Source: Eubacteriales bacterium (lineage in GTDB: Bacteria > Bacillota > JASUSC01). Taken from it: DNA of 35,237 bases. Position 1 is the first letter of the stretch, and the number at the start of each line of letters is the position of its first letter. A model generated the notes under the pieces. The model had not been told where the DNA came from. It saw only the letters and a program-made list of their open reading frames with translations, and searched no databases. This document shows positions 11,283-33,624 of the stretch, piece by piece. The stretch covers positions 1-35,237 of the forward strand of contig JASUSC010000013.1 of NCBI GenBank assembly GCA_030446285.1, read 5' to 3'. Made by a program: the position numbers and the translations under genes.

Positions 11283-12119
11283 TTATGCGTAAGAATGGAG
11301 TCCAGGCACGAAGTAGTTGATACCAAAGAAGGTAAACAGAACGGCAATGAAACCAAGAATAGCAAAGAAAATAGCTCTTCTTCCCCGCCAGTCCAGCATT
11401 AGCCGGTTATGGGGGTAGGCAGCGTAAATAATCCAGGTAATGAGGGTTCAGGTCTCTTTCGGGTCCCAGCTCCAGTAACGGCCCCAGGCAAACTCAACCC
11501 AAATGGCGCCGGAGATAATGACTATCGAAAGGAAGATAAAGCCAAAGACGATAAAACGATAGGCCAGTTCCTCAAAGGTCGTCCTCGACGGTAAGACCCG
11601 GACAAGAGCACACCCCGGCTGCCGGACCTTTCTCCGGCTTCTTTGATAAGGTACATGATGGCCAGGCCGAAAGAGACGGCAAAAGCACCGTAAGAAATAA
11701 TGGAAGTAGCCACGTGAATATAGAGCCGGTTGCTGCACAACACCGGCATCAAGTCAGTAGGCGATCTCTCCTCTCACAAAAACATCAGCACAGAAGCTAG
11801 CAGCAACCAGGCTCTCGGCATAACGAGGGCACCTAACATCCGCAGGTTGTACTTCCACTCAGCAAACATATAGATAAGCACAATCCAATAGATAAGCACA
11901 ATACCCCAGGTAAAAGAAACTAGAAAATCATAGCCGTTGGACAAAGACGGTTGCCCTGCCTTTTTCCAGCGCACAAGCAACAGAACCGTATTCGCCAGCA
12001 GACCTACTGCTGCTGCCAAAGTTCCTCCCTTGTCCAAACTTTCACTGTGGAAAGCCGCATAGATTAAAATAAAGAAGGGTAGCGATGAAATAGGCAGCAA
12101 AGGTCACATAGCTGTACAC
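11283..12119 (-). pseudogene. ccsA: ccsA/resC relic (cytochrome c maturation, System II)
   Basis: CcsA is a multi-pass membrane protein that presents heme to apocytochrome c. The pieces are clear: VYSYVTFAAYFIATL, then [48 protein letters not shown], and the hallmark tryptophan-rich [12 protein letters not shown], then LITWIIYAAYPHNRLMLDW and a normal end at 11283. They cannot be read as one frame. There is a frameshift near 12065-12075, an in-frame TGA at 11774-11776, a frameshift near 11590-11640, and a TGA at 11448-11450 where relatives have Trp in WDPKETW. Four lesions make this a pseudogene unless the local sequence is faulty. Confidence 0.85.
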
Positions 12120-12815
12120 CGCCCGAAACTTGTTCAGCTTTATTTCCACATTGTCACGTGGATCCGCAATCCGCACCTTGGGAACCACGGTCGGGCTAAC
12201 TTTATCTCCTTCGGAAATTTCCCCATAAGTGTTGGAAAACCTCCAGTCCCCTGAAAAGTAAAGATCATAGCCACTATTATCACAATAAAGGCCAAATGGA
12301 TGACAAAAGGCCCCCCTCCCAATCCGTCCTTTGTCCGCTGCTAAAAAGCGTTTACCCTCTTCCTCCCGTTTCAAAACGCGGCAACCTTTGCCCTTCAGGA
12401 CTTCCTCAACCTGGTTCGCCACTTCTGCCGGACTGCCGCTCTTTCTGCTCTCGAAGCCGTATCTCAAACCCCGAAAGACGCTCTCGCTGAAATCCAAACG
12501 CGGCCCGCGTAATGCAGCTCTAATTGCCGGCCAGCGGTTAAAGATGATTTAGACAGAGAAGGCCCAGAAGAGCGAGGAAAAGGGGGTTGTTATAAAAACA
12601 CTCGTAATTTTCCTTCATCACCAGGGTACCGATTATGGAGGCCAGAGTAATAATTATCAGGAGGATAACCCTCATCTTCATTGAGCTAAAAAGTTCCAGA
12701 ACACCTGAACCAGATCTTTTGCATTTCCGTCCTGAGCAGGCATTACCTCTTCCACTTCAGCCACTTGTTTTGTCGCTTCCTTTTCGTCCAGTTTAGTTTT
12801 CTTTTTCTTCGCCAT
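12110..12815 (-). pseudogene. resB: resB/ccs1 relic (cytochrome c maturation, System II)
   Basis: ResB partners CcsA in moving heme across the membrane. The remnant starts at ATG 12815 (MAKKKKTKLDEKEATK, ending VFWNFLA), shifts frame near 12680 into SMKMRVILLIIITLASIIGTL, and seems to lack most of the loop normally found before LFLALLGLLCLN. It shifts again near 12540 into FNRWPAIRAALRGPRLDF. A compensated pair of frameshifts lies near 12310 and 12255 (the transmembrane text GPFVIHLAFIVIIV is in another frame). After IKLNKFRAVYS it runs straight into the start of ccsA, so the C-terminal half of ResB is missing. Confidence 0.8.
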
Positions 12816-13334: not shown

Positions 13335-13679
13335 TTACTGTCCGTTTTCGCCTTCCGGCCGTATTCCCCTCTTGGTTAACTCAGCCACTAAGTAGGGGTA
13401 GGATAGGGCTCCGGCCATTACCGGTTCCGAATCAAAAGCAATAATAGGCAAGGGAGTTTTGTAATCGTCCAGGTATTTCTTCACTTCCGGATAGTCGTCC
13501 AAACGGGGATCGTCATTGACATCAATGTATTCCAGATCTACCCTCCCCCCGTATTTCTCCTGCAAAATTTCTCTGATAACGCCGGCAATCTCCTCCTGAG
13601 ATTGAGATGGCCCTCAGCCGCCGCGGCTGCAGCTATCAAAAATTCGGGAACCAAAAACCCTGATGGTTACTTCTGCCAT
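13335..13679 (-). CDS. Thioredoxin-fold protein, candidate selenoprotein (in-frame TGA at codon 22)
   Basis: ATG 13679 has a strong site (AAGGAG, eight bases away). The frame reads MAEVTIRVFGSRIFDSCSRGG, then TGA (13616-13614), then GPSQSQEEIAGVIREIL and on without a break to 13335: 114 codons if TGA is read through. The layout is a first beta strand, Cys17, residue 22 before Gly-Pro-Ser, a helix, YGGRVDLEYIDV, and a proline next to a strand (TPLPIIAF) where thioredoxin folds have cis-Pro. It resembles the small YuzD/DUF1462-like disulfide proteins, without certainty. With selenocysteine the active site would be C-x4-U. It is last in an operon led by trxB, a natural reductant. The alternative is a nonsense mutation, since nearby genes are damaged. 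Confidence 0.55.
13586..13604 (-). promoter_or_regulatory. SECIS-like hairpin just after the in-frame TGA
   Basis: On the minus strand CAATCTC (13604-13598), loop AGGAG (13597-13593), GAGATTG (13592-13586): seven perfect pairs. The stem begins nine bases after the TGA and the loop begins 16 bases after it. The loop has G among its first two bases. These values fit the general bacterial SECIS pattern (apical loop a short distance after UGA, G near the loop start). Pairing below the stem is poor. Confidence 0.45.
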
Positions 13680-13701: not shown

Positions 13702-13889
13702 TCAGTTTCTCTGACGTCGCAACTCTTCATCTACCCATGCCAGTTCCTCTTCTAGCTCTTCCAACTGGACAAACATGGCCGGTTGCAGGGAATGGGCCGG
13801 AAAGCGCTTCTCCAGGTTCTCTTTTTTCTCCGCCAGCTTTTCTCGGTACAGCGGAGCTGGTCTTCCGTCATTGTCTTAAATTCAACCAT
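13702..13889 (-). pseudogene. Small coiled-coil protein gene with a frameshift
   Basis: ATG 13889 opens MVEFKTMTEDQLR. A one-base shift near 13851-13855 is then needed to continue as LYREKLAEKKENLEKRF, QPAMFVQLEELEEEL and WVDEELRRQRN to the stop at 13702. The whole product would be about 62 residues, nearly all charged helix, and likely a coiled coil. No family is recognised. It lies between the zinc-ribbon gene and the thioredoxin-fold ORF and is presumably co-transcribed with trxB. The shift is either a real mutation or a sequence error. Confidence 0.5.
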
Positions 13890-13943
13890 GACTTTTCACC
13901 GCCTTTTCCGGCGAAAGCCTCCGGCTTCCAGTATTTAGAAGCC

Positions 13944-14150
13944 TCAGCCGAAGGCTCTGGCCGAACAGGAAGGCGTCCCTGCCGAGGGACAGGAAGACGA
14001 ACTGCTACCCTTCATGACGGCAAAACCGGTAAAAAGCTGCTTCACCTTCCCACCGCATTTGGGACAGGTGACGCTGTCCTTTTCGGCAATAGCCACCATT
14101 TTGCTAAATATATGACCGCAGCTTTCACAGCGGAAATCGTAATTCGGCAT
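13944..14150 (-). CDS. FmdB-type zinc-ribbon protein
   Basis: A 68-residue protein starting MPNYDFRCESCGHIFS, the hallmark of the FmdB/CxxC_CxxC_SSSS family. Cys8 and Cys11 pair with CPKCG about 20 residues later to bind one zinc. The serine-rich tail (GSSSSSCPSAG) is also typical. Relatives are called regulatory proteins, but their role is not established. The start is ATG 14150, because GGAGG lies eight bases upstream; the longer upstream frame is spurious. It lies about 100 bases after trxB in the same direction. Confidence 0.85.
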   Translation of the reverse strand: MPNYDFRCESCGHIFSKMVAIAEKDSVTCPKCGGKVKQLFTGFAVMKGSSSSSCPSAGTPSCSARAFG

Positions 14151-14255
14151 ACCTATCACCTCCGAATACCCGGTTACCCTCCGGGGGTATTTTAACACAA
14201 AACCATCAGCTCTGCAAGCGGCCAAAAAGCATGGTACTTCCCTAACTGCTCGACT

Positions 14256-15215: not shown

Positions 15216-15244
15216 ATTATACCCTATTGGGGTATATCTGGCAA
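15216..15244 (-). promoter_or_regulatory. trxB promoter with embedded CsoR/CstR-like operator
   Basis: Minus strand: -35 TTGCCA (15244-15239), 17-base spacer, -10 TATAAT (15221-15216). The palindrome TATACCC-N5-GGGTATA (15218-15236) fills the spacer and overlaps the -10 box. The core ATACCC-N5-GGGTAT occurs again upstream of the FAD/Fe-S gene. C/G-tract palindromes flanked by ATA/TAT are typical of CsoR/CstR/FrmR-type repressors, which sense copper, persulfides or aldehydes; none is encoded in the window. Confidence 0.65.
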
Positions 15245-15331
15245 GATAACTTTACTAGTTTTTTACCCCGCTACTATCCCGTCAATATAAAAAAACAACA
15301 GCGCAGGCTACCATTTGCCGAATACGGGGCA

Positions 15332-15337
15332 TATAAT
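15332..15337 (+). promoter_or_regulatory. Candidate -10 box for the MFS-pgsA transcript
   Basis: TATAAT lies 72 bases before the MFS start, but no good -35 box is found 16-18 bases upstream. Two Shine-Dalgarno-like stretches follow (AAGGAGG near 15378 and AGGAG at 15394); only the second serves ATG 15410. Confidence 0.35.
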
Positions 15338-15409
15338 ATTTTTAGTCAGGCTTGCTAAAAAACCGCAACAGTCAAGCAAGGAGGTTAACCTTTAGGAGCA
15401 AAAAAAGCT

Positions 15410-16609
15410 ATGGAAACCTGGCGTCGTAACCTTTTTGCCATGTGGTTTGCCCAGGCTACAGGAATGAGCACCCTTTCTTTTATTATGTCCTTCATCCCCC
15501 TTTACGTTGTCCACTTAGGGGTAAAAAATCCTGCCGCTGCCGCCCGCTGGGCCGGACTATTGATGGGCACCAGCGCCTTTTTCGCCACTTTTTTCGGTCC
15601 TCTGTGGGGCAGCCTGGCCGACCGCATCGGTCGCAAACCGATGGTAGAAAGGGTTTTGATCAGTAATTCAGTGATCACGCTGCTGATGGCCTTTGCCGGG
15701 AACGTGTATGTATTCTTCTTCCTGCGGGTAATTCAAGGAATGTTAGGAGGCTTTTACTCAGCCGCCATCGCCCTCGTCACCAGTTTTACCCCGCCGGAAA
15801 AAACCGGTTTTGCACTGGGTTTATTTCAAACAGCCATGACTGCCGGCTATACCCTGGGTCCCCTTATCGGGGGAGTCTTAGCCGACAGGGTAGGCTTTCG
15901 CAACACTTTTCTCATCATGGCTTGTTTTAGCCTCACCGCCTTTTTTATCGTTCACTTTCTGGTGCAGGAAAACTTTCGTCCTTCCGCCAGCCACAGGGAA
16001 CCCCTTCTCCAGTCCCTGCGCCGCACTTTGCAAATCCCGGGTTTGCTCCCAGTATTGCTGGTAAACTTTGGCGTCCAGTTTTCTCTCATGGCTATTGGCC
16101 CTATCATACCCCTTTTCATCAAAGAACTGGGAACGGGCAGCAGCTACCTGGCTTCCTTTTCCGGCCTGGTCATTGCCGTGGGCGGCCTGTGCGGTTCCCT
16201 TTCGGCCCTGATAGCGGGGAACCTCAGCGACCGCTTTCCCGCCAAGAGGGTAATGGCCATTCTTGTAACCGGCGGCACCGTGGCCTTCGTCCTGCAGGGA
16301 CTGGCCCAGTCCCCCTGGCAGCTCCTCCTCTTCCGCGGACTCACCGGTCTTTTTATGGGAGGCATGATTCCGGCCGCCAACACCCTCATCAACACCATGA
16401 TTCCCCGGGACAGAAAAGGCTCGGCTTTCGGCCTTACCACCAGCTTTTCTCTCCTGGGCAACGTCCTGGGACCGGTGTGTGGCGGTCTCCTGGCATCAGC
16501 AACCGGATTCCGCGGTGTCTTTCTAATCATTGCTGCTCTTACGGGTACTCTTTCCCTCTGGCTGCACACTGCCGGCCGGAAAATCCTTCCCGGCCGTTTA
16601 TCAAACTAA
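15410..16609 (+). CDS. MFS transporter, drug-efflux type
   Basis: A 399-residue cytoplasmic-membrane protein with about 12 hydrophobic segments in two six-helix halves. The loop after helix 2 carries MFS motif A (GSLADRIGRKP), with a degenerate copy in the second half (GNLSDRFPAKR). The proline- and glycine-rich helix 5 (GYTLGPLIGGVLADR) is motif C, typical of proton-driven drug antiporters, so export of a small molecule is the best guess. The substrate is unknown. AGGAG lies 11 bases before ATG 15410. pgsA follows after 18 bases, so they are probably co-transcribed. Confidence 0.85.
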   Translation: METWRRNLFAMWFAQATGMSTLSFIMSFIPLYVVHLGVKNPAAAARWAGLLMGTSAFFATFFGPLWGSLADRIGRKPMVERVLISNSVITLLMAFAGNVYVFFFLRVIQGMLGGFYSAAIALVTSFTPPEKTGFALGLFQTAMTAGYTLGPLIGGVLADRVGFRNTFLIMACFSLTAFFIVHFLVQENFRPSASHREPLLQSLRRTLQIPGLLPVLLVNFGVQFSLMAIGPIIPLFIKELGTGSSYLASFSGLVIAVGGLCGSLSALIAGNLSDRFPAKRVMAILVTGGTVAFVLQGLAQSPWQLLLFRGLTGLFMGGMIPAANTLINTMIPRDRKGSAFGLTTSFSLLGNVLGPVCGGLLASATGFRGVFLIIAALTGTLSLWLHTAGRKILPGRLSN

Positions 16610-16627
16610 AGCAAAGGAGAGCGTGGA

Positions 16628-17179
16628 ATGACCCTGCCCAATCTGATAACTTTTTTTCGCCTCCTTCTAATTCCCGTTTTTCTCCTGGTTTTCTGGAGCG
16701 ATAATCAGAACCTGCTTTTGGCCATGACCATCTTTGCCCTGGCCGGCCTTTCCGACCTGTTGGACGGCTACCTGGCCCGAAAATTAAATGCCATCTCTGA
16801 CATCGGCAAAGTCCTTGACCCCATTGCCGATAAAGGGATAACGGCTGCCGCTGTCGTCTCCCTCTACCTGGACGACCATATGCCGGAATGGTTAGTGCTG
16901 GTTCTTTTAAGCAAAGAAGCGGTGATGATCTTGGGTGGTACCTATCTCTGGGTACGAAAAAAACAGCGGGATTTGAGTGCCCGCATTGCCGGCAAAGCAG
17001 CTACTTTCCTCATTTTCGTTGCCGTCCCTTTCAACGCCTTTAAACTTCCCGGCCGCTCCGCGGTCAACGTGGCCGCCGCCGCAGCTACTCTGGTAGCTCT
17101 CATTTACTACTGCTGGGTATTTTTCCTCCCCTCAGTTTCTTCTTTCTTCCTGGTCCACCGGTTTAAATCGCGGCGGTAG
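16628..17179 (+). CDS. pgsA: CDP-diacylglycerol-glycerol-3-phosphate 3-phosphatidyltransferase
   Basis: Makes phosphatidylglycerophosphate, the precursor of phosphatidylglycerol and cardiolipin, in the membrane. The CDP-alcohol phosphotransferase motif DG-x2-AR-x8-G-x3-D-x3-D is complete: Asp46, Gly47, Ala50, Arg51, Gly60, Asp64 and Asp68, in LLDGYLARKL and IGKVLDPIADKG. Several transmembrane helices surround it, and the N-terminus NLITFFRLLLIP is typical. It has 183 residues; AGGAG is eight bases before ATG 16628. The last 73 bases overlap the convergent MazG-like gene. Confidence 0.9.
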   Translation: MTLPNLITFFRLLLIPVFLLVFWSDNQNLLLAMTIFALAGLSDLLDGYLARKLNAISDIGKVLDPIADKGITAAAVVSLYLDDHMPEWLVLVLLSKEAVMILGGTYLWVRKKQRDLSARIAGKAATFLIFVAVPFNAFKLPGRSAVNVAAAAATLVALIYYCWVFFLPSVSSFFLVHRFKSRR

Positions 17180-17457
17180 TATTTTTCCATCACCCCCCGG
17201 AAAGCCTCTTCCAGGTCAATTCCCAGAGAATTGGCCAGACATACCAGCACGAAAAGGACATCCCCTATCTCTTCGGCCACATCCCCTTCCGGCTCATCGG
17301 CTTTTTTAGGTTTGTGGCCGTAACGGTGGTTTAACTCCCGGCAAAGTTCCCCCGTCTCTTCAATGAAGCGCATCATCATGCTCCCCGGCGGCCAGTACCC
17401 TTCCTCAAACTGGCTTATCCATCGGTCAACTATTTCCTGCATCTCTTTTATTTCCAA
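17107..17457 (-). CDS. MazG-like nucleotide pyrophosphohydrolase
   Basis: Single-domain all-alpha NTP pyrophosphohydrolase of the MazG/dUTPase-like superfamily, thought to clear non-canonical nucleotides. The metal-binding ExxE-x(n)-ExxD pattern is visible: RFIEETGELCREL and AEEIGDVLFVLVCLAN. It is about 116 residues, one MazG domain. Start choice: ATG 17463 touches its GGAGG, whereas TTG 17457 (MEIKEMQEIVDRW) has GGAGG seven bases away and fits the family start, so TTG is preferred. Its end overlaps the end of pgsA by 73 bases tail to tail, so the two transcripts are antisense there. Confidence 0.85.
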   Translation of the reverse strand: MEIKEMQEIVDRWISQFEEGYWPPGSMMMRFIEETGELCRELNHRYGHKPKKADEPEGDVAEEIGDVLFVLVCLANSLGIDLEEAFRGVMEKYYRRDLNRWTRKKEETEGRKNTQQ

Positions 17458-17479
17458 GACCATCCCTCCCTTGCTTTCC

Positions 17480-17485
17480 ATTATA
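17480..17485 (-). promoter_or_regulatory. Candidate -10 box for the MazG-like gene
   Basis: Minus-strand TATAAT lies about 22 bases before the TTG start and after the terminator at 17512-17529, so the gene would need its own promoter here. The matching -35 region is poor. Confidence 0.35.
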
Positions 17486-17499
17486 GAACTACGAGGGCA

Positions 17500-17529
17500 A
17501 AAATAAAAGGAGGCCGGATGAAACCGGCC
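17500..17529 (-). terminator. Minus-strand terminator after the second thioredoxin reductase
   Basis: GGCCGG (17512-17517) pairs with CCGGCC (17524-17529); on the minus strand a TTTTATTTTT tract follows shortly after. It separates the broken reductase gene from the MazG-like gene. Confidence 0.7.
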
Positions 17530-17535
17530 CCGTCC

Positions 17536-17569
17536 AGGCTGCTCGCGAAATCCAGCAGCCTGTTTTTTT
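17536..17569 (+). terminator. Plus-strand terminator
   Basis: AGGCTGCT (17536-17543) pairs with AGCAGCCT (17554-17561), then GTTTTTTT. It is the first plus-strand terminator seen after pgsA, which means the pgsA transcript would run antisense through the whole MazG-like gene. Confidence 0.75.
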
Positions 17570-17598
17570 AGGAGGAAAATTCCTTCTCCCATTTAAAA

Positions 17599-18685
17599 TC
17601 ATCTGCTCACTACCGCTCTTTTCGCCGTAACGTATTTTTCCGCATTGATTCCCGCTATAGCCCCATCGGCAGCAGCGGTGATGGCCTGCCGCACCGACTT
17701 GGCCCGCACATCCCCGGCGGCAAACACGCCTTCAATGTCAGTAGCCATCTCCGCATCGGTGATGATGTACCCGTTTTCATTCATGGCCACCTGTCCCCGG
17801 AAAAGTTCCGTCGCAGGACGGGTGCCGATGTAAACGAAGACTCCGTCGGTGGGTATCTCTCTCCGCTCGCCGGTGCGGAGATTTTCTATCTCTACCGCAG
17901 TAACGTGCCCTTCTCCAATTACCCGCCGTACTTCTGACTCCCAGATTACGTCAATTTTGGGATGGCGCAAAGCCTCTTCCTGGGCAACCCGGGACGCCTG
18001 GAAATGGTCAAACTGGTGCACTATGGTGACGTGTTCGGCAAAACGGGTGAGAAACACCGCTTCCTCCACAGCGGAGTTGCCCCCGCCTACCACTATCACC
18101 CGCCGGCCCTGGTACATAGCCCCATCAACAGGTAGCACAGTAGTGGACGCCACGCCCCCGAAAGGTGTCCTCCCCTTCCGCGGGAAGCAGACGCGGTTTC
18201 GCCCCGGTGGCAATGATGAGAGCCAGAGCATAGTAGTCCGTATCTTCCGTGACCACCTTCTTTACCTCTCCCACCAGGTCCACTTCCGCCACTTCCTTAT
18301 AATCGTCCACCCGCACGCCGAAACTTTGGGCCTGGCGGAGCATATTATCCATCAGTTCCCGTCCCCTGATCACCCCCGGCGTCCCCGGGTAATTGGCGAT
18401 ATGGTAGGTAGTTGCCGCCTGTCCCCCAGGCAATCCCTCTTCCACCACTACGGCGTTTAGTTTGGCCCGGCCGGCATAGATAGCCGCGCTGAGCCCGGCC
18501 GGACCGGCCCCCAAAATTATCAGGTCTGCCTCCACCTGTTTCCTTTCCCCGGGTTTTACCTCCGTCCCGAAGGTCTCCTCAATGGCCCGGCGGAGTTCCG
18601 CCTTGGAGATGTAGCCGGCAAGACGCCGCTCCTGCCACAATAATGAAAATACCCTAGCTGTCGCCGGTGACAAAATCATTTTCAT
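17599..18685 (-). pseudogene. Second thioredoxin-reductase-like gene, frameshifted at its CxxC
   Basis: A trxB paralogue with an N-terminal extension of about 50 residues (SPATARVFSLLWQERRLAGY, then SKAELRRAIEETFG) before the FAD motif LIILGAGPAGLSAAIYAGRA. The frame reads to RGRGVHYCATC and stops at TGA 18127-18125. One base fewer would continue as DGAMYQGRRVIVVGGG (NAD(P) motif) and on to IEGVFAAGDVRAKSVRQ and the end at 17599. So a single extra T follows the second active-site Cys codon. Both halves are otherwise well conserved. It could be a fresh mutation, a sequence error, or a +1 shift site at a stop codon; the first two are likelier. ATG 18685 lacks a good ribosome binding site. Confidence 0.75.
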
Positions 18686-18767
18686 TCTCAATGGAACAAG
18701 TATTTTTGAACTAACTCACCATCCCTTCGCCTTTCTTTCTTTTCCATCCATAATCTTCATTTTACCT

Positions 18768-18778
18768 ATACCAGGTAT
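18768..18778. promoter_or_regulatory. Short palindrome ATACC-A-GGTAT
   Basis: It lies in the divergent region between the broken reductase and the FAD/Fe-S gene, next to a TAAAAT-like box on the minus strand. It shares ATACC/GGTAT arms with the two longer operators, but with a one-base centre, so its link to them is tentative. Confidence 0.3.
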
Positions 18779-18848
18779 TTCTCAAAAATTTTCAAACAAC
18801 AAGAGCCAATTTTGATAAAATTTTTCCCCAGCTTTTTTCAGGGGTATC

Positions 18849-18877
18849 TTGACGAATGGGAAAAATCGAGGTATGCT
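18849..18877 (+). promoter_or_regulatory. Promoter of the FAD/Fe-S oxidoreductase
   Basis: -35 TTGACG (18849-18854), exactly 17 bases, -10 TATGCT (18872-18877). Transcription would start near 18884, about 70 bases before the ATG. Confidence 0.75.
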
Positions 18878-18888
18878 AAAATCAAGTG

Positions 18889-18905
18889 ATACCCCTGCAG
18901 GGTAT
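18889..18905 (+). promoter_or_regulatory. CsoR/CstR-like operator in the 5' leader
   Basis: ATACCC-CTGCA-GGGTAT begins about five bases after the predicted transcription start. The arms and spacing are identical to the palindrome in the trxB promoter. A repressor bound here would block initiation or early elongation. Confidence 0.6.
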
Positions 18906-18953: not shown

Positions 18954-21900
18954 ATGAAAGAGCTCAAGCTCAAGTTCGGAGAGCGTTTCCGGGATGATAA
19001 AGCCGAGCGCCTCATCTACTCCCACGACGTGGCCAGCCTGCCGGACGTGGTAGAAAAAATGGTAATTAAACTGCCCCAGGCTGTGGTCCAGCCCGTCAAC
19101 GTGGAAGAAGTTGTCTTCGTCGTCAACTACGCCCGCCAGCACAACATCCCCATTGTCCCCCGCGGCGCTGGTACCAGCGGTTACGGCGGTGTCTTGCCGG
19201 TTAAAGGTGGCATTGTCGTCAACACCAGCCGGATGCGCCGGATTATCAACGTCGATGAGGAAAACATGACGGTGACGGTAGAACCCGGCGTGGTCTGGGG
19301 GCAACTAGAAGAATACCTCAACGAGCGGGGTCTGGCTCTGCGCCTTTATCCCACCAGTACCCCCTCCGCTACCGTAGCCGGCTGGATTGCTGAAGGTGGT
19401 ACGGGTATCGGCAGCTACGAGTACGGCTACATCGGCCAGCACGTGGTCGCGGTCAAAATCGTTACCCCCGACGGTCAGGTAAAAGTGATGACCGGTTCCG
19501 ACCTGGACCTGGTTAACCGGGCGGAAGGTATTACCGGCATCATCGTGGAAGCCACCATCAAGGTTCGTCGGAAAGAGGAACATCTCATGCACCTGGCCGC
19601 CTTCAAAAATCTGGCCGATCTCCAAAAAACCCTGGCCCAGATTAAAGAGGCCGGCCTGCCTCTGTGGCACGTTGGTTTCGTCACCCGGGAATTCGTCAAG
19701 AACAAACTTTTAACGAAAAACAAAGACGCCGCCCATGCCGACAATATGGCCCTTTTCGTCTATCCGCAGAGCCGGGAAGGTCGGGTGAAAGAAAAACTCC
19801 TGGCCATTATCCAGGCCAACGGCGGGCTACTCTTGGGTGACAAAGAAGCTCAGGAAGAATGGAATGAACGTTTCTATCCCATGCGTCTCAAATCCTTAGG
19901 TCCCTCCCTTATCCCCAGTGAAGCCGTAGTTCCTGTAGCCAACCTGGGAAAAATTTTAGCCGAAGCGGAAGAAAAACTGCCCGGAATCTCCATTGAAGGG
20001 ATGATGGTGGGTGACAGCGAAGCCACCCTTCTCTGTTTCCTCAAAGGCGACGAGCGCACTTCCGCCTTCACCATCGGCTTTGCTAAGTCCCTTATTCTTC
20101 TGGAAGTAGCCCAGAAATACGGTGGTCGTCTCTATTCCGTTGGTCTCTACTTCACCGATATGGCCGAGCAGGTCTTAGGCGAAAGCACCCTGGAAAAACT
20201 GCGCCTCTTCAAGCGCCAAGTAGACCCCGGCTCCATCATGAACCCGGGTAAAATCTTGGTGGAGAACGAAAATCCCGCCCTCCTGCGCGGAATGATGAAA
20301 ATGGGCCGCTACTCTACCGGTATGCTGGGAGTGGCGGAAGCATTCACCAGCAACAAACCGAAAGAGTCGAATAAACTGCCGCGTCCTCTGGCCTCGGCTC
20401 CCTATGTCTGCGCCCAGTGTGGTTACTGTACGGAAGTCTGCACCCTGCACCAGGGTTTCGGCTGGGAGAGCGCTTCCCCCAAAGGTAAGTGGTACATCCT
20501 CAAGCAGTACCTGGAAGGCAAGTACGAACTGGACCAAAAAATGGTCGACATGCTCCTGATGTGCACCACCTGCAAGAAGTGCGACCCGGTCTGCCAGGTA
20601 AACCTGCCCATCATGGAATTGTGGGATATGCTGCGTCCCATTCTGATTATGGAAAAAGGTTACTCCACTTATCCCGCTTTCGAGATGATGGGCGCCAGCA
20701 TTGAGTCCGACCTCAACATCTGGGCCGGCCGCAAACGGGAGCGGGCCAACTGGATTCCGAAAGACGTAGAAATCAAAGACAAAGCTCCCATCGGCTACTG
20801 GGCCGGTTGCACTGCCTCCTTCGTCGAGACGGAAATCGCCGAGCAGGCCGTCCGTATCCTCAAAGAAGGTGGAGTAGAATTCACCACCTTGGGTACCGAC
20901 GAAGGTTGTTGCGGTATCCCCATGCTGGTAGCCGGTAAGCACGACACTTTTGAAATCGTCTTCAGAAACAACGTGGAAAACCTGCGCAAGCGGGGCGTAA
21001 AAGAGCTGGTCATCTCCTGCCCCGGTTGTTATGCCGCCTTCTCCCACTACTACCCGCACTTCGCGGAGAAATTAGGCTACGGCGACTTAGGCATCAAATT
21101 CATCCACATCTCCGAAGTAGTGGACCATCTGGTCAAGGAAGGCAAACTGAAATTCAAGAAACCCGTCAACAAGAAATTAGCCTGGCACGACTCCTGCCAC
21201 ATCGGCCGGCTGGCCGGCATCTACGAACCGCCGCGCAACGTCCTCAAAGCCATTCCTGGCGTAGAACTGGTGGAATGCAAGAAGAACCGCGAACACGGCT
21301 CCTGCTGCGGTAGCGTTCTCACCCGGATTGGCAATCCCAAGGTATCCAACAAGTTAGCTGCCGACCGGCTGCAGGAAGTCATTGAAGCCGGGGCTGAAGC
21401 TCTGGTAGCCACCTGTCCCTGCTGCGAAGTGCAGCTCCGGGTAGGTGGAGCCAAATCGGGAATCAACCTGCCCATTATCGACTTCAGCAGCGTGGTCATC
21501 GAAGCCTTAGGCTACGAGGCCAAAGACACCACCGCCTACATGTTCTCCCTGTGGGAAGTCTTTGAAAAAGCCATCGACATCATGACCAGGGATGGCATTG
21601 TCAAGATGATGGGCGAGATGATGCCGGAAATCATGCAGGCCATGCCCAACGCTATGAAACCCGTCCTCAAGGGCATGGAAGCCCTGCCCGGCCCCATTCA
21701 GAAGCCGTCTTTAAGCCTCATGGAAAAAATGGTACCGCTGATGATGCCCGTCCTCTTCCCCAGCATGATGCCCAAACTGATGCCCAAAGTCATGGAACTG
21801 ATGAAGAAAGAAATCCCCAACATGCCGCCGCAAATGGAAGAAAAACTGCCCGACATGCTCCCCAAAGTCATGGCCCGCATCATGCCTGGCATGCTGGCGG

Positions 21901-21962
21901 AAGTGGCTCCTCTCCTGGCACCGAAGATGACGGAATACATCGCCCGCAAGAAAGCCAACTAA
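18954..21962 (+). CDS. FAD/Fe-S oxidoreductase, glycolate/D-lactate dehydrogenase-like, with Met-rich tail
   Basis: A 1002-residue fusion of the GlcD and GlcF types. Residues about 40-220 bind FAD (PCMH fold: PIVPRGAGTSGYGG, PSATVAGWIAEGGTG); the FAD-oxidase C domain ends at VDPGSIMNPGKIL. Two ferredoxin-type motifs follow: Cys486/489/492/496 (CAQCGYCTEVC) and Cys537/540/543/547 (CTTCKKCDPVC), then two CCG domains (DEGCCGIP, SCPGC; HGSCCGS, TCPCCE). It probably oxidises a 2-hydroxyacid and passes electrons to a quinone or electron carrier. Residues about 869-1002 form an unusual tail with 25 Met and 19 Pro. ATG 18954 has GGAGG upstream and is chosen over an in-frame TTG inside the promoter. 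It is monocistronic. Confidence 0.88.
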   Translation: MKELKLKFGERFRDDKAERLIYSHDVASLPDVVEKMVIKLPQAVVQPVNVEEVVFVVNYARQHNIPIVPRGAGTSGYGGVLPVKGGIVVNTSRMRRIINVDEENMTVTVEPGVVWGQLEEYLNERGLALRLYPTSTPSATVAGWIAEGGTGIGSYEYGYIGQHVVAVKIVTPDGQVKVMTGSDLDLVNRAEGITGIIVEATIKVRRKEEHLMHLAAFKNLADLQKTLAQIKEAGLPLWHVGFVTREFVKNKLLTKNKDAAHADNMALFVYPQSREGRVKEKLLAIIQANGGLLLGDKEAQEEWNERFYPMRLKSLGPSLIPSEAVVPVANLGKILAEAEEKLPGISIEGMMVGDSEATLLCFLKGDERTSAFTIGFAKSLILLEVAQKYGGRLYSVGLYFTDMAEQVLGESTLEKLRLFKRQVDPGSIMNPGKILVENENPALLRGMMKMGRYSTGMLGVAEAFTSNKPKESNKLPRPLASAPYVCAQCGYCTEVCTLHQGFGWESASPKGKWYILKQYLEGKYELDQKMVDMLLMCTTCKKCDPVCQVNLPIMELWDMLRPILIMEKGYSTYPAFEMMGASIESDLNIWAGRKRERANWIPKDVEIKDKAPIGYWAGCTASFVETEIAEQAVRILKEGGVEFTTLGTDEGCCGIPMLVAGKHDTFEIVFRNNVENLRKRGVKELVISCPGCYAAFSHYYPHFAEKLGYGDLGIKFIHISEVVDHLVKEGKLKFKKPVNKKLAWHDSCHIGRLAGIYEPPRNVLKAIPGVELVECKKNREHGSCCGSVLTRIGNPKVSNKLAADRLQEVIEAGAEALVATCPCCEVQLRVGGAKSGINLPIIDFSSVVIEALGYEAKDTTAYMFSLWEVFEKAIDIMTRDGIVKMMGEMMPEIMQAMPNAMKPVLKGMEALPGPIQKPSLSLMEKMVPLMMPVLFPSMMPKLMPKVMELMKKEIPNMPPQMEEKLPDMLPKVMARIMPGMLAEVAPLLAPKMTEYIARKKAN

Positions 21963-31095: not shown

Positions 31096-33624
31096 TCACC
31101 CCCTGACAGGCGCCCTTGTCCCCCGGCGGAAGGAAGGGACAAACCTTTTCAAAAGTAAGGTGTTCATGGTGACGGAGAAAGAGCTTAAAGCCATCAGCAG
31201 GGCAGCTAATTCCGGGGTAACGATAAAGTGGTTGACCGGAATGAAAAGGCCGGCCGCCAAGGGGATGCCCAGGGAGTTGTAGATAAAAGCCCAGAACAGG
31301 TTCTGCTTAACCTTGTTGATGGTGGCCCGGCCTATTTCCACCGCCGCCACCACGTCCAGCAGTTCCCCCCGGATGAGAATCACGTCTCCGGTCTCCTTGG
31401 CCACGTCGGTGCCGGTGCCGATGGCAATCCCCACGTCGGCCTGGGCCAGGGCAGGAGCGTCGTTGATACCGTCCCCCACCATGGCCACCGTGTAACCTTC
31501 CGCCTGGAGTTCTTTCACCTTCTCAGCCTTCTCCCAGGGTAGCACCTCTGCCCGTACTTCGTCCACTCCCGCCTGGCGAGCAATGGCCTGGGCCGTGCGG
31601 CGGTTGTCCCCGGTGAGCATTATAACCTTAAGCCCTTTTTCTTTAAGGAGCTTCACCGCCAAGGCTGCCTCTTCCTTCAGCGTGTCCGCCACAGCTACCA
31701 GCCCTACCAGCTTCCCGGCCTCGGCCACGAAAATGACCGTCTTCCCCTCTTCTTCTAACTTCTCCGCCGCCTCCCGGCCTTCCTCCCAGCTTATCCCCTT
31801 CTCCCCCATCAGGGTGCGGTTGCCGGCATAAACCGTCTTCCCGGCCACCATCGCTTCCACTCCCCGTCCCGGAAGAGCGGTGAAAGCAGAGGGTTCCGCT
31901 ACCGCTAACCCTTTTTCCCGAGCCGCCCGCACCACCGCCTGGGCCAGGGGATGCTCGGAGTTTTTGTCGGCTGCCGCAGCTAACAGCAACACCCGCTCGC
32001 CGTTGTTACCCGCCAGCGGCACCACGTCCGTGACTACCGGTTCTCCCCGCGTCAAGGTACCGGTTTTGTCAAAGACCACCGCTCGGACTTTGTTTATCTT
32101 CTCAATGGCTTCGGCCGTTTTGAAGAGGATGCCGTTCTCCGCCCCCTTACCGGTACCGGCCATGATGGCGCTGGGCGTGGCCAGCCCCACCGCACAGGGG
32201 CAGGAGATAACCAGGACGGTGATGCTCATAAGCAGGGAGAAACCGAAGGCCCGGATGTCCCCTAAGGCCATAGTGGAAAAGGCGGAGCGAATATAGGGCT
32301 CGAAGCGGTCAAAACCGTAGAAAAACCAGAAAAGAAACACCAGCAGGGAAAGGACATGGACCGCCAGGATAAAGTGGCCGGCCACCACGTCGGCAATTTT
32401 CTGCAGGGGCGGCTTGGAACCCTGGGCGTCTTCTACCATCTTCACGATCTGGGAGAGCATAGTCTCCCGCCCTACCCGGGTGGCGGTAAATTTAAAAGTT
32501 CCGGTGCGGTTGATAGTCCCGCCGATTACCTGGTCCCCTGGTTTTTTCTCCACCGGCAGACTCTCGCCGGTAAGCATGGATTCATCCACCGTGGAGAAAC
32601 CTTCCACCACCTGGCCGTCCACCGGAATAGCCTCTCCGGGCCGCACCACGATGATGTCTCCTTTCACCACCTCGTCGGCCGGAATTTCCACTTCTTCCCC
32701 ATCCCGGATTATCCTGGCCGTGGGGGGCTGGAGACTCATCAGCCGGCGTAAGGCTTCAGAAGTTCTACCCCGGGTAACTGCTTCCAAGTAGCGACCCAGG
32801 ACAATAAAGGCAGTAAGGAAAGCCGCCGACTCGTAGAAAGTAGCCTTCTCCCCGCCGAAACCGGCATCGGGCCAGAGGGTGTTGATCACGGCTATGAGAT
32901 ATGCCGCCCCGATGCCGGTGGCGTAGAGGAGGTTCATGTCGGTGATCCCTTTTTTCAGGCCCCGCCAGCTGTTGACGAAAAACTGGCCGCCGGCAAAGAT
33001 CACCACCGGCGTAGTCAGGGCCCACTGAACGTACTTGTTGGCCAAAAAGGCAGGGACGATATCCTCTAAAATCCAGTAGTGACGCAACATCCCAGCCATA
33101 ACCAAGACGGCTATGGGCCAGGTAAGGAGGAGACGGCGCTTCTGTTTCCTGATCTCCTCTTCCCGGAGTTCCTTCTCCCGCTCTAAAGCCGCCTGCCCCT
33201 CCAGCCGGTCCTCCACGCCGTAGTCCAGTTCCCGCACCGCTCGTTTTATCTGTCCCCGCTCCACGGCGCCGCTCAGGTAAACCACCCGCAGGGAAGAAGC
33301 GGCCAGATTGACGTTCGCCTCTAAGACCCCGGGAATCCTGCTTACCGCCCGCTCCACCTTACGCACGCAGGCGGCGCAGGTCATCCCGGTGACGGTAAAG
33401 AGGGCTTCTTCCGTCACCGGCTCATAGCCTAAGTCGCGAACAGTTGTTACTATCGTATTTAAATCTACTTTGCCGTCGTCATAAACCACCCGCACTGTAC
33501 CGCCGGCTAAATTTACCGACGCTTCTTCTACCCCCTTCAGCCGCCGCAACGCCCTCTCAATCTTGGCTACACAGGCGGCACAGCTTATCCCCTGCCAGCG
33601 CAGGGATATTTCCCGTCGGGCCAT
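31096..33624 (-). CDS. copA: Copper-exporting P1B-type ATPase
   Basis: Pumps Cu(I) out of the cytoplasm with ATP. Two N-terminal metal-binding domains carry Cys15/Cys18 ([12 protein letters not shown]) and Cys83/Cys86 ([12 protein letters not shown]). The A-domain has [11 protein letters not shown]; the membrane copper site is CPC at 475-477 ([14 protein letters not shown]), which marks the Cu(I) subgroup. The phosphorylated Asp519 is in [13 protein letters not shown], and [20 protein letters not shown] closes the P-domain. It has 842 residues, with about eight transmembrane helices. ATG 33624 has GGAG six bases away. A promoter with an inverted repeat lies at 33670-33698. Confidence 0.96.

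Follow-up and report, generated by a model that had tools for sequence, protein, structure and literature searches.

The stretch of DNA considered here (the window) comprises 35,237 nucleotides of contig JASUSC010000013.1 from an Eubacteriales bacterium (assembly GCA_030446285.1). It carries the thioredoxin reductase gene trxB, a zinc-ribbon gene that follows it, and a gene for a large oxidoreductase with FAD and iron-sulfur domains (the FAD/Fe-S protein; Table 1). One and the same palindrome, ATACCC-N5-GGGTAT, lies at the predicted promoters of trxB and of the FAD/Fe-S gene, and according to our analysis its reading as a shared operator of the CsoR/CstR type appears well supported. A motif scan finds two exact copies in the window, against none in every one of 100 dinucleotide-shuffled versions of it.

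The promoters were predicted from consensus. At trxB, on the minus strand, the operator takes up the 17 bases that separate TTGCCA from TATAAT, as had been said in the preliminary description of this DNA, which gave the palindrome as 15218-15236, that is, the exact site plus one complementary base on each side; it was equally right that arms and spacer length of the two copies are identical. The second copy had been placed just behind the predicted start codon of the FAD/Fe-S gene; it is indeed an exact site at this gene, but it lies 11 bases past TTGACG-N17-TATGCT and 48 bp upstream of the likely start, ATG 18954, which is preceded by AGGAGGGTG. Both positions, in the spacer and past the -10 box, would suit a repressor that blocks transcription. 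The same geometry recurs in relatives, where most sites fall either between the -35 and -10 boxes or immediately behind the latter, and several promoters of Tat-signal Fe-S protein genes have one copy in each place (the second copies were found by eye); a few sites, such as those of loci L354 and L374, stand at neither position.

Table 1. Positions in the window of the predicted promoters, operator sites and adjoining genes
Feature	Positions	Strand	Details
Predicted trxB promoter	15216..15244	-	-35 TTGCCA (15244-15239), 17-base spacer, -10 TATAAT (15221-15216)
Predicted FAD/Fe-S gene promoter	18849..18877	+	TTGACG, 17-base spacer, TATGCT
Exact type 2 operator ATACCC-N5-GGGTAT	15219..15235	none	Within the trxB promoter, between -35 and -10
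Exact type 2 operator	18889..18905	none	Shortly 3' of the -10 box in the FAD/Fe-S promoter
Putative operator with one mismatch, TTACCCTCCGGGGGTAT	14174..14190	none	In the gap between the trxB and FmdB-type zinc-ribbon genes
Doubtful operator with three mismatches	18762..18778	none	Ahead of the second thioredoxin reductase gene, which is broken; contains ATACC-A-GGTAT
trxB, thioredoxin-disulfide reductase, 307 amino acids	14256..15179	-	TIGR01292, 415 bits against a cut-off of 343
FmdB-family zinc-ribbon protein, next after trxB	13944..14150	-	TIGR02605, 1.4e-17
FAD/Fe-S oxidoreductase, 1002 amino acids	18954..21962	+	PF01565, PF02913, Fer4, PF02754

Throughout the organism's own assembly (1.70 Mb in 87 contigs, 82% complete) the exact motif occurs three times and its reversed control not at all; with at most one mismatch the counts are 12 and 1. 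All three exact sites are in promoter regions, the third being found on contig C63 (52883-52899), 18 bp upstream of where the gene for a Tat-signal Fe-S protein begins, a gene that is followed by one of cytochrome b561 type. Across the phylum, 61 genomes together contain 84 exact sites, and the reversed control gives 10 (sums over one table). The motif is thus not frequent at random places, nor is it unconserved before orthologues (below), the two outcomes that would have told against the preliminary description. That description had overlooked the site with one mismatch behind trxB (14174-14190); FmdB-like zinc-ribbon genes elsewhere have an exact site upstream, at 185 bp in genome G003 and 60 bp in G051. 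The shorter ATACC-A-GGTAT that it had named as a related site, ahead of the second thioredoxin reductase, could not be upheld: at the right spacing it has three mismatches, and as matches with up to three mismatches are common (19 seen, 12.0 expected), it carries no weight alone.

Among the sites of the own genome with at most one mismatch, those at C64:1219, C6:294 and C63:26838 are upstream of genes; those on C40, C50, C55, C76 and C86 apparently fall within reading frames and were rejected as operators. Some exact sites of the phylum scan are intragenic too, and we take these as chance. A functionless, accidental origin of the palindromes altogether, to which the commonness of loose matches and the intragenic position of several one-mismatch sites might be thought to speak, is nevertheless so improbable that we regard it as refuted in the main, by a conservation far over that of the 59 control motifs, all palindromes with permuted arm letters; the absence of exact matches in shuffled sequence, the recurrent promoter geometry and the sites at csoR-family genes also speak against it.

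This conservation was followed upstream of orthologues of the three genes that have exact sites. The FAD/Fe-S and Tat Fe-S proteins were searched in 398 genomes of the phylum, 44 of which have a match with E <= 1e-200 to the former and 44 one at E <= 1e-40 to the latter, and for these two proteins and trxB the best 30 matches each were taken as loci. The Tat Fe-S gene has the widest link of the three to the operator: a site with at most one mismatch is present at 18 of its 30 best matches, 10 of these exact, own locus included (control mean 0.034). For the FAD/Fe-S gene we counted the 28 loci that reach the N-terminus, leaving aside L348 and L359, where the match starts inside the protein; seven of these best matches, the own one included, have a site with at most one mismatch within 300 bp upstream (control mean 0.017). 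All four other orthologues of at least 59% identity (L341, L227, L342, L343) are among them, as are 2 of the 23 distant ones (L354, L358), and the link is thus maintained within a group of close orthologues.

For trxB, whose conservation the preliminary description had singled out for checking, the picture is poorer. Only 3 of the 30 best matches have a site, all exact and the own one included (control mean 0.017); further exact sites upstream of trxB are found in G003, G009 and Desulfosporosinus metallidurans, which makes five genomes besides the own. A second set of 80 trxB loci, some short ones of which were covered solely by a whole-locus scan at one mismatch or fewer, yielded an upstream site in Desulfosporosinus metallidurans only. 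The Moorella mulderi locus has an exact site before a different frame, and G011 has one downstream of trxB. One-mismatch sites downstream of trxB in G013 and G037 were rejected as support for trxB, since they belong to copZ and copA genes. The association of trxB with the operator is real but patchy.

CsoR-family operators are known at genes of copper efflux, nickel/cobalt efflux, formaldehyde response and sulfurtransferases. Our motif, with its 12 fixed bases and five-base gap, is the same as the type 2 operator described for Streptomyces lividans CsoR; the consensus given there is ATATACCCCTNAGGGGTATAT, in which conservation is highest at positions 3-8 and 14-19, on either side of the 5-base spacer (PMC3902906). 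The two G/C tracts and the TAC/GTA dyads of this operator type are present in our motif. The phylum has also sites before csoR-family genes themselves. Such genes occur in 48 of the 61 genomes, 15 of the 75 listed sites are at most 5 kb from one, and at 20 of the 74 csoR-family domain hits (one locus being counted twice) a site with at most one mismatch lies within 250 bp upstream, against a control mean of 0.08. The identity with the published consensus and the sites before csoR-family genes support the reading as an operator of the CsoR/CstR type, which the preliminary description had proposed from the form of the palindrome.

The company of these regulator genes points to thioredoxin. Directly 3' of csoR stands trxA at 17 of the 74 hits, G049 being arranged likewise, and csoR-trxA is often preceded by csdL, a gene for a tRNA-modifying enzyme: the csoR-family gene is next after csdL in G057, G011, G049, G009 and G004, and the order csdL-csoR-trxA is seen in G004, G011, G049, G050, G057 and others. 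Elsewhere in the phylum the exact site is found upstream of copA, rhodanese, OsmC, thioredoxin and zinc-ribbon genes, and of genes for a DsbD/CcdA-like protein and a YeeE-type sulfur transporter; candidates of the cst kind with an exact site amount in relatives to one rhodanese, one OsmC and one YeeE-type gene.

In our view a CsoR/CstR-like (DUF156) repressor linked to thioredoxin is likely to use the palindromes as its operators, and persulfide, polysulfide or disulfide would be the most likely signal to release it; binding by a CsoR-family protein, repression, the kind of signal and what the two Fe-S enzymes do are all what we infer from genomic comparison. At rest the repressor would sit on the -35/-10 spacer of trxB and block its transcription, and it would do likewise at the FAD/Fe-S gene and at the gene pair for the Tat-exported Fe-S protein and cytochrome b, there immediately behind the -10 box. 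Its release would follow from modification of its two sensor cysteines, for which persulfide, polysulfide or disulfide stress is the likeliest cause, by analogy with CstR. Thioredoxin reductase would then be made, in relatives thioredoxin too, along with the HdrD-like flavoprotein and a membrane electron-transfer module, which could supply electrons for the reduction of sulfur or disulfides.

The nature of the signal may be read from the sensor residues, which in copper-sensing CsoR are Cys-His-Cys. CstR of Staphylococcus aureus, a CsoR paralogue and per- and polysulfide sensor, uses two cysteines, C31 and C60, according to the part of the source available (PMC5480029), and, like it, some regulators of operator-bearing genomes have no His ligand. 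Of the 48 genomes in which a hit was obtained, our census of regulators covers 46, all but G031 and G059, in 73 rows with some overlapping loci, and in 17 of these 46 a Cys-x-Cys (C-x-C) regulator without His is present. Every one of the 5 genomes in which the Tat Fe-S gene has an exact site carries it, and none of the 7 with a copA site does (p 0.0013; p 0.0045 for the Tat-site genomes against all others), a test that was made post hoc and in which two of the five Tat-site genomes share one genus; for all genomes with redox-gene sites, at thioredoxin or Fe-S genes, the numbers are 7 of 11 against 10 of 35 others (p 0.07). The regulator tree, with 10 changes, has too few columns to tell whether the C-x-C type forms one clade. 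As the genomes with Tat Fe-S sites carry regulators lacking the copper-ligand His, persulfide or thiol stress is provisionally favoured over copper.

Copper indeed makes a serious rival. Under classical control a Cu(I)-sensing CsoR would be the regulator, and copper would induce trxB and the Fe-S enzymes since it attacks thiols and Fe-S clusters; the motif is that of a CsoR copper operator, copA sites are present in 7 genomes, two genomes (G053 and G037) have copA and trxB sites together with Cys-His-Cys (C-H-C) regulators only, and the FAD/Fe-S protein, whose last 140 residues include 26 Met, could bind Cu(I) by this Met-rich tail. We nevertheless regard it as rather unlikely, given the His-less regulators of the Tat-site genomes and the situation at the window's own copA (31096-33624), the only copper gene examined, upstream of which the motif scan gives no match with two or fewer mismatches, in agreement with what had been seen there by eye; a match with two mismatches at 33098 is intragenic, and two with three mismatches lie upstream (33774 and 33859). 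Allicin and a diallyl polysulfane are described, in the accessible part of PMC6943732, as inducing the CsoR regulon of Bacillus subtilis, which means that copper and sulfur signals can overlap.

A number of facts weigh against a thiol-responsive CsoR/CstR-like repressor at these genes. Apart from the after-the-fact choice of the comparison above, the trxA-linked regulators are mixed (9 C-H-C and 8 C-x-C of 17), and G037, with one-mismatch sites at copA and at the trxB operon, has a single regulator, of the C-H-C type. No site is present at 27 of the 30 trxB orthologues or at 79 of the 80 loci of the second trxB set, and most distant orthologues of the FAD/Fe-S protein lack it as well, 21 of 28 being without it in total. 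Moreover, the CsoR/CstR homologue that the preliminary description had advised looking for was not found in the 82%-complete own assembly, either in a search with the PF02583 profile or with the G057 regulator as query at a lax threshold, which gave nothing better than E 0.04. The own csdL matches at C19:92-847 on the minus strand, and the contig ends within 92 bases past the matched part; a csoR-family gene following it may have been lost in an assembly gap, or may be truly absent. The synteny is not whole: in some relatives rarA follows csoR-trxA, and the own rarA stands elsewhere without them.

This missing gene is also what could speak for a regulator of another family, for instance of Rrf2 or MerR type, reading the same palindrome in the own genome. 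We find that improbable, for in relatives csoR-family genes themselves have the motif upstream, which is what autoregulation requires, and the same targets carry it in genomes that do bear csoR.

The two Fe-S enzymes that would stand under this control resemble known families from a distance. The FAD/Fe-S protein consists of a GlcD-like FAD domain, a 4Fe-4S domain, two CCG domains of HdrB/GlpC type and a Met-rich C-terminal tail (21540-21962, plus strand) with repeated MP motifs; all nine sequences examined, the own included, have such a tail, with 22-30 Met per last 140 residues. It scores far under the curated cut-offs of GlcD, LdhH, TfrB and GlpC, for which reason its substrate should not be named, a 2-hydroxyacid being just the default for the GlcD-like family of flavoproteins. 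Similarity of the Tat Fe-S protein is to HmcB, HybA and the beta subunits of FDH, with scores under their cut-offs. From their gene company both enzymes may have a role in persulfide or disulfide reduction.

Some further observations concern the surroundings and possible additional members. The second thioredoxin reductase of the window (17599-18691, minus strand) is broken in the assembly into two overlapping frames, 17599-18231 and 18125-18691, and is intact in relatives, e.g. at L212; a ResB-like region (12042-12497) and, near 13720-13890, a small gene seem to be broken as well, which makes errors in the sequence, or decay, likely in this part. A small thioredoxin-like protein farther down the trxB gene row (13338-13679, minus strand) has one in-frame TGA near its N-terminus, for which selenocysteine, error and decay cannot be told apart. 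One-mismatch sites in the own genome lie 14 bp before an FmdE-family gene (C64:1219-1235, L010) and shortly before a small gene, probably for a membrane protein (C6:294-310, L005). In three families of the phylum (L188, L211, L217) exact sites stand 18-22 bp before a gene for an SBF/ACR3-like transporter, perhaps another regulon member, and in two genera of one family (L169, L170) 16-18 bp before that of a small, apparently membrane-anchored protein of about 110 amino acids, for which no Pfam family was found (L169 tested).

The operator as such is of a known kind; novelty appears to lie in its targets and in the connection with thioredoxin. In the available part of the Streptomyces lividans study CsoR has copZA and csoR as its targets (PMC3902906), whereas here these are trxB, FAD/Fe-S and Tat Fe-S genes; CstR of Staphylococcus aureus is described as likely controlling directly a single operon, cst (PMC5480029), in contrast to the scattered thioredoxin and electron-transfer genes found by us. 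Two other CsoR-family sulfane-sulfur sensors, CstR of Enterococcus faecalis, which represses sulfurtransferases and a CoA-persulfide reductase (PMC9405070), and YrkD of Bacillus licheniformis, which represses an 11-gene cluster with sqr and pdo (PMC9918477), have other targets, and the accessible portions of these two papers do not name trxB, trxA or these Fe-S enzymes. In the literature covered, outside of which most subscription journals lie, neither a CsoR/CstR operator at trxB nor a csoR-trxA operon was found to be reported.

Operators at trxB, regulator-thioredoxin operons and two uncharacterised electron-transfer enzymes point to a thiol or sulfur stress regulon in anaerobes, and there is probably a group of thiol-redox genes with common control in these bacteria. 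Both Fe-S enzymes gain hereby a first functional lead, and the exact promoters are named. A bolder suggestion, which we put forward tentatively and with less confidence than the repressor itself, is that the CsoR branch of the csdL-csoR-trxA order could be a master switch of sulfane-sulfur and disulfide stress in anaerobic Bacillota, coupling thioredoxin, the GlcD-HdrD-like Met-tailed flavoprotein and the Tat-exported Fe-S/cytochrome b module as a persulfide- or disulfide-reducing path. If true, such a path would serve organisms that are unable to use the oxygen-dependent persulfide dioxygenase route.

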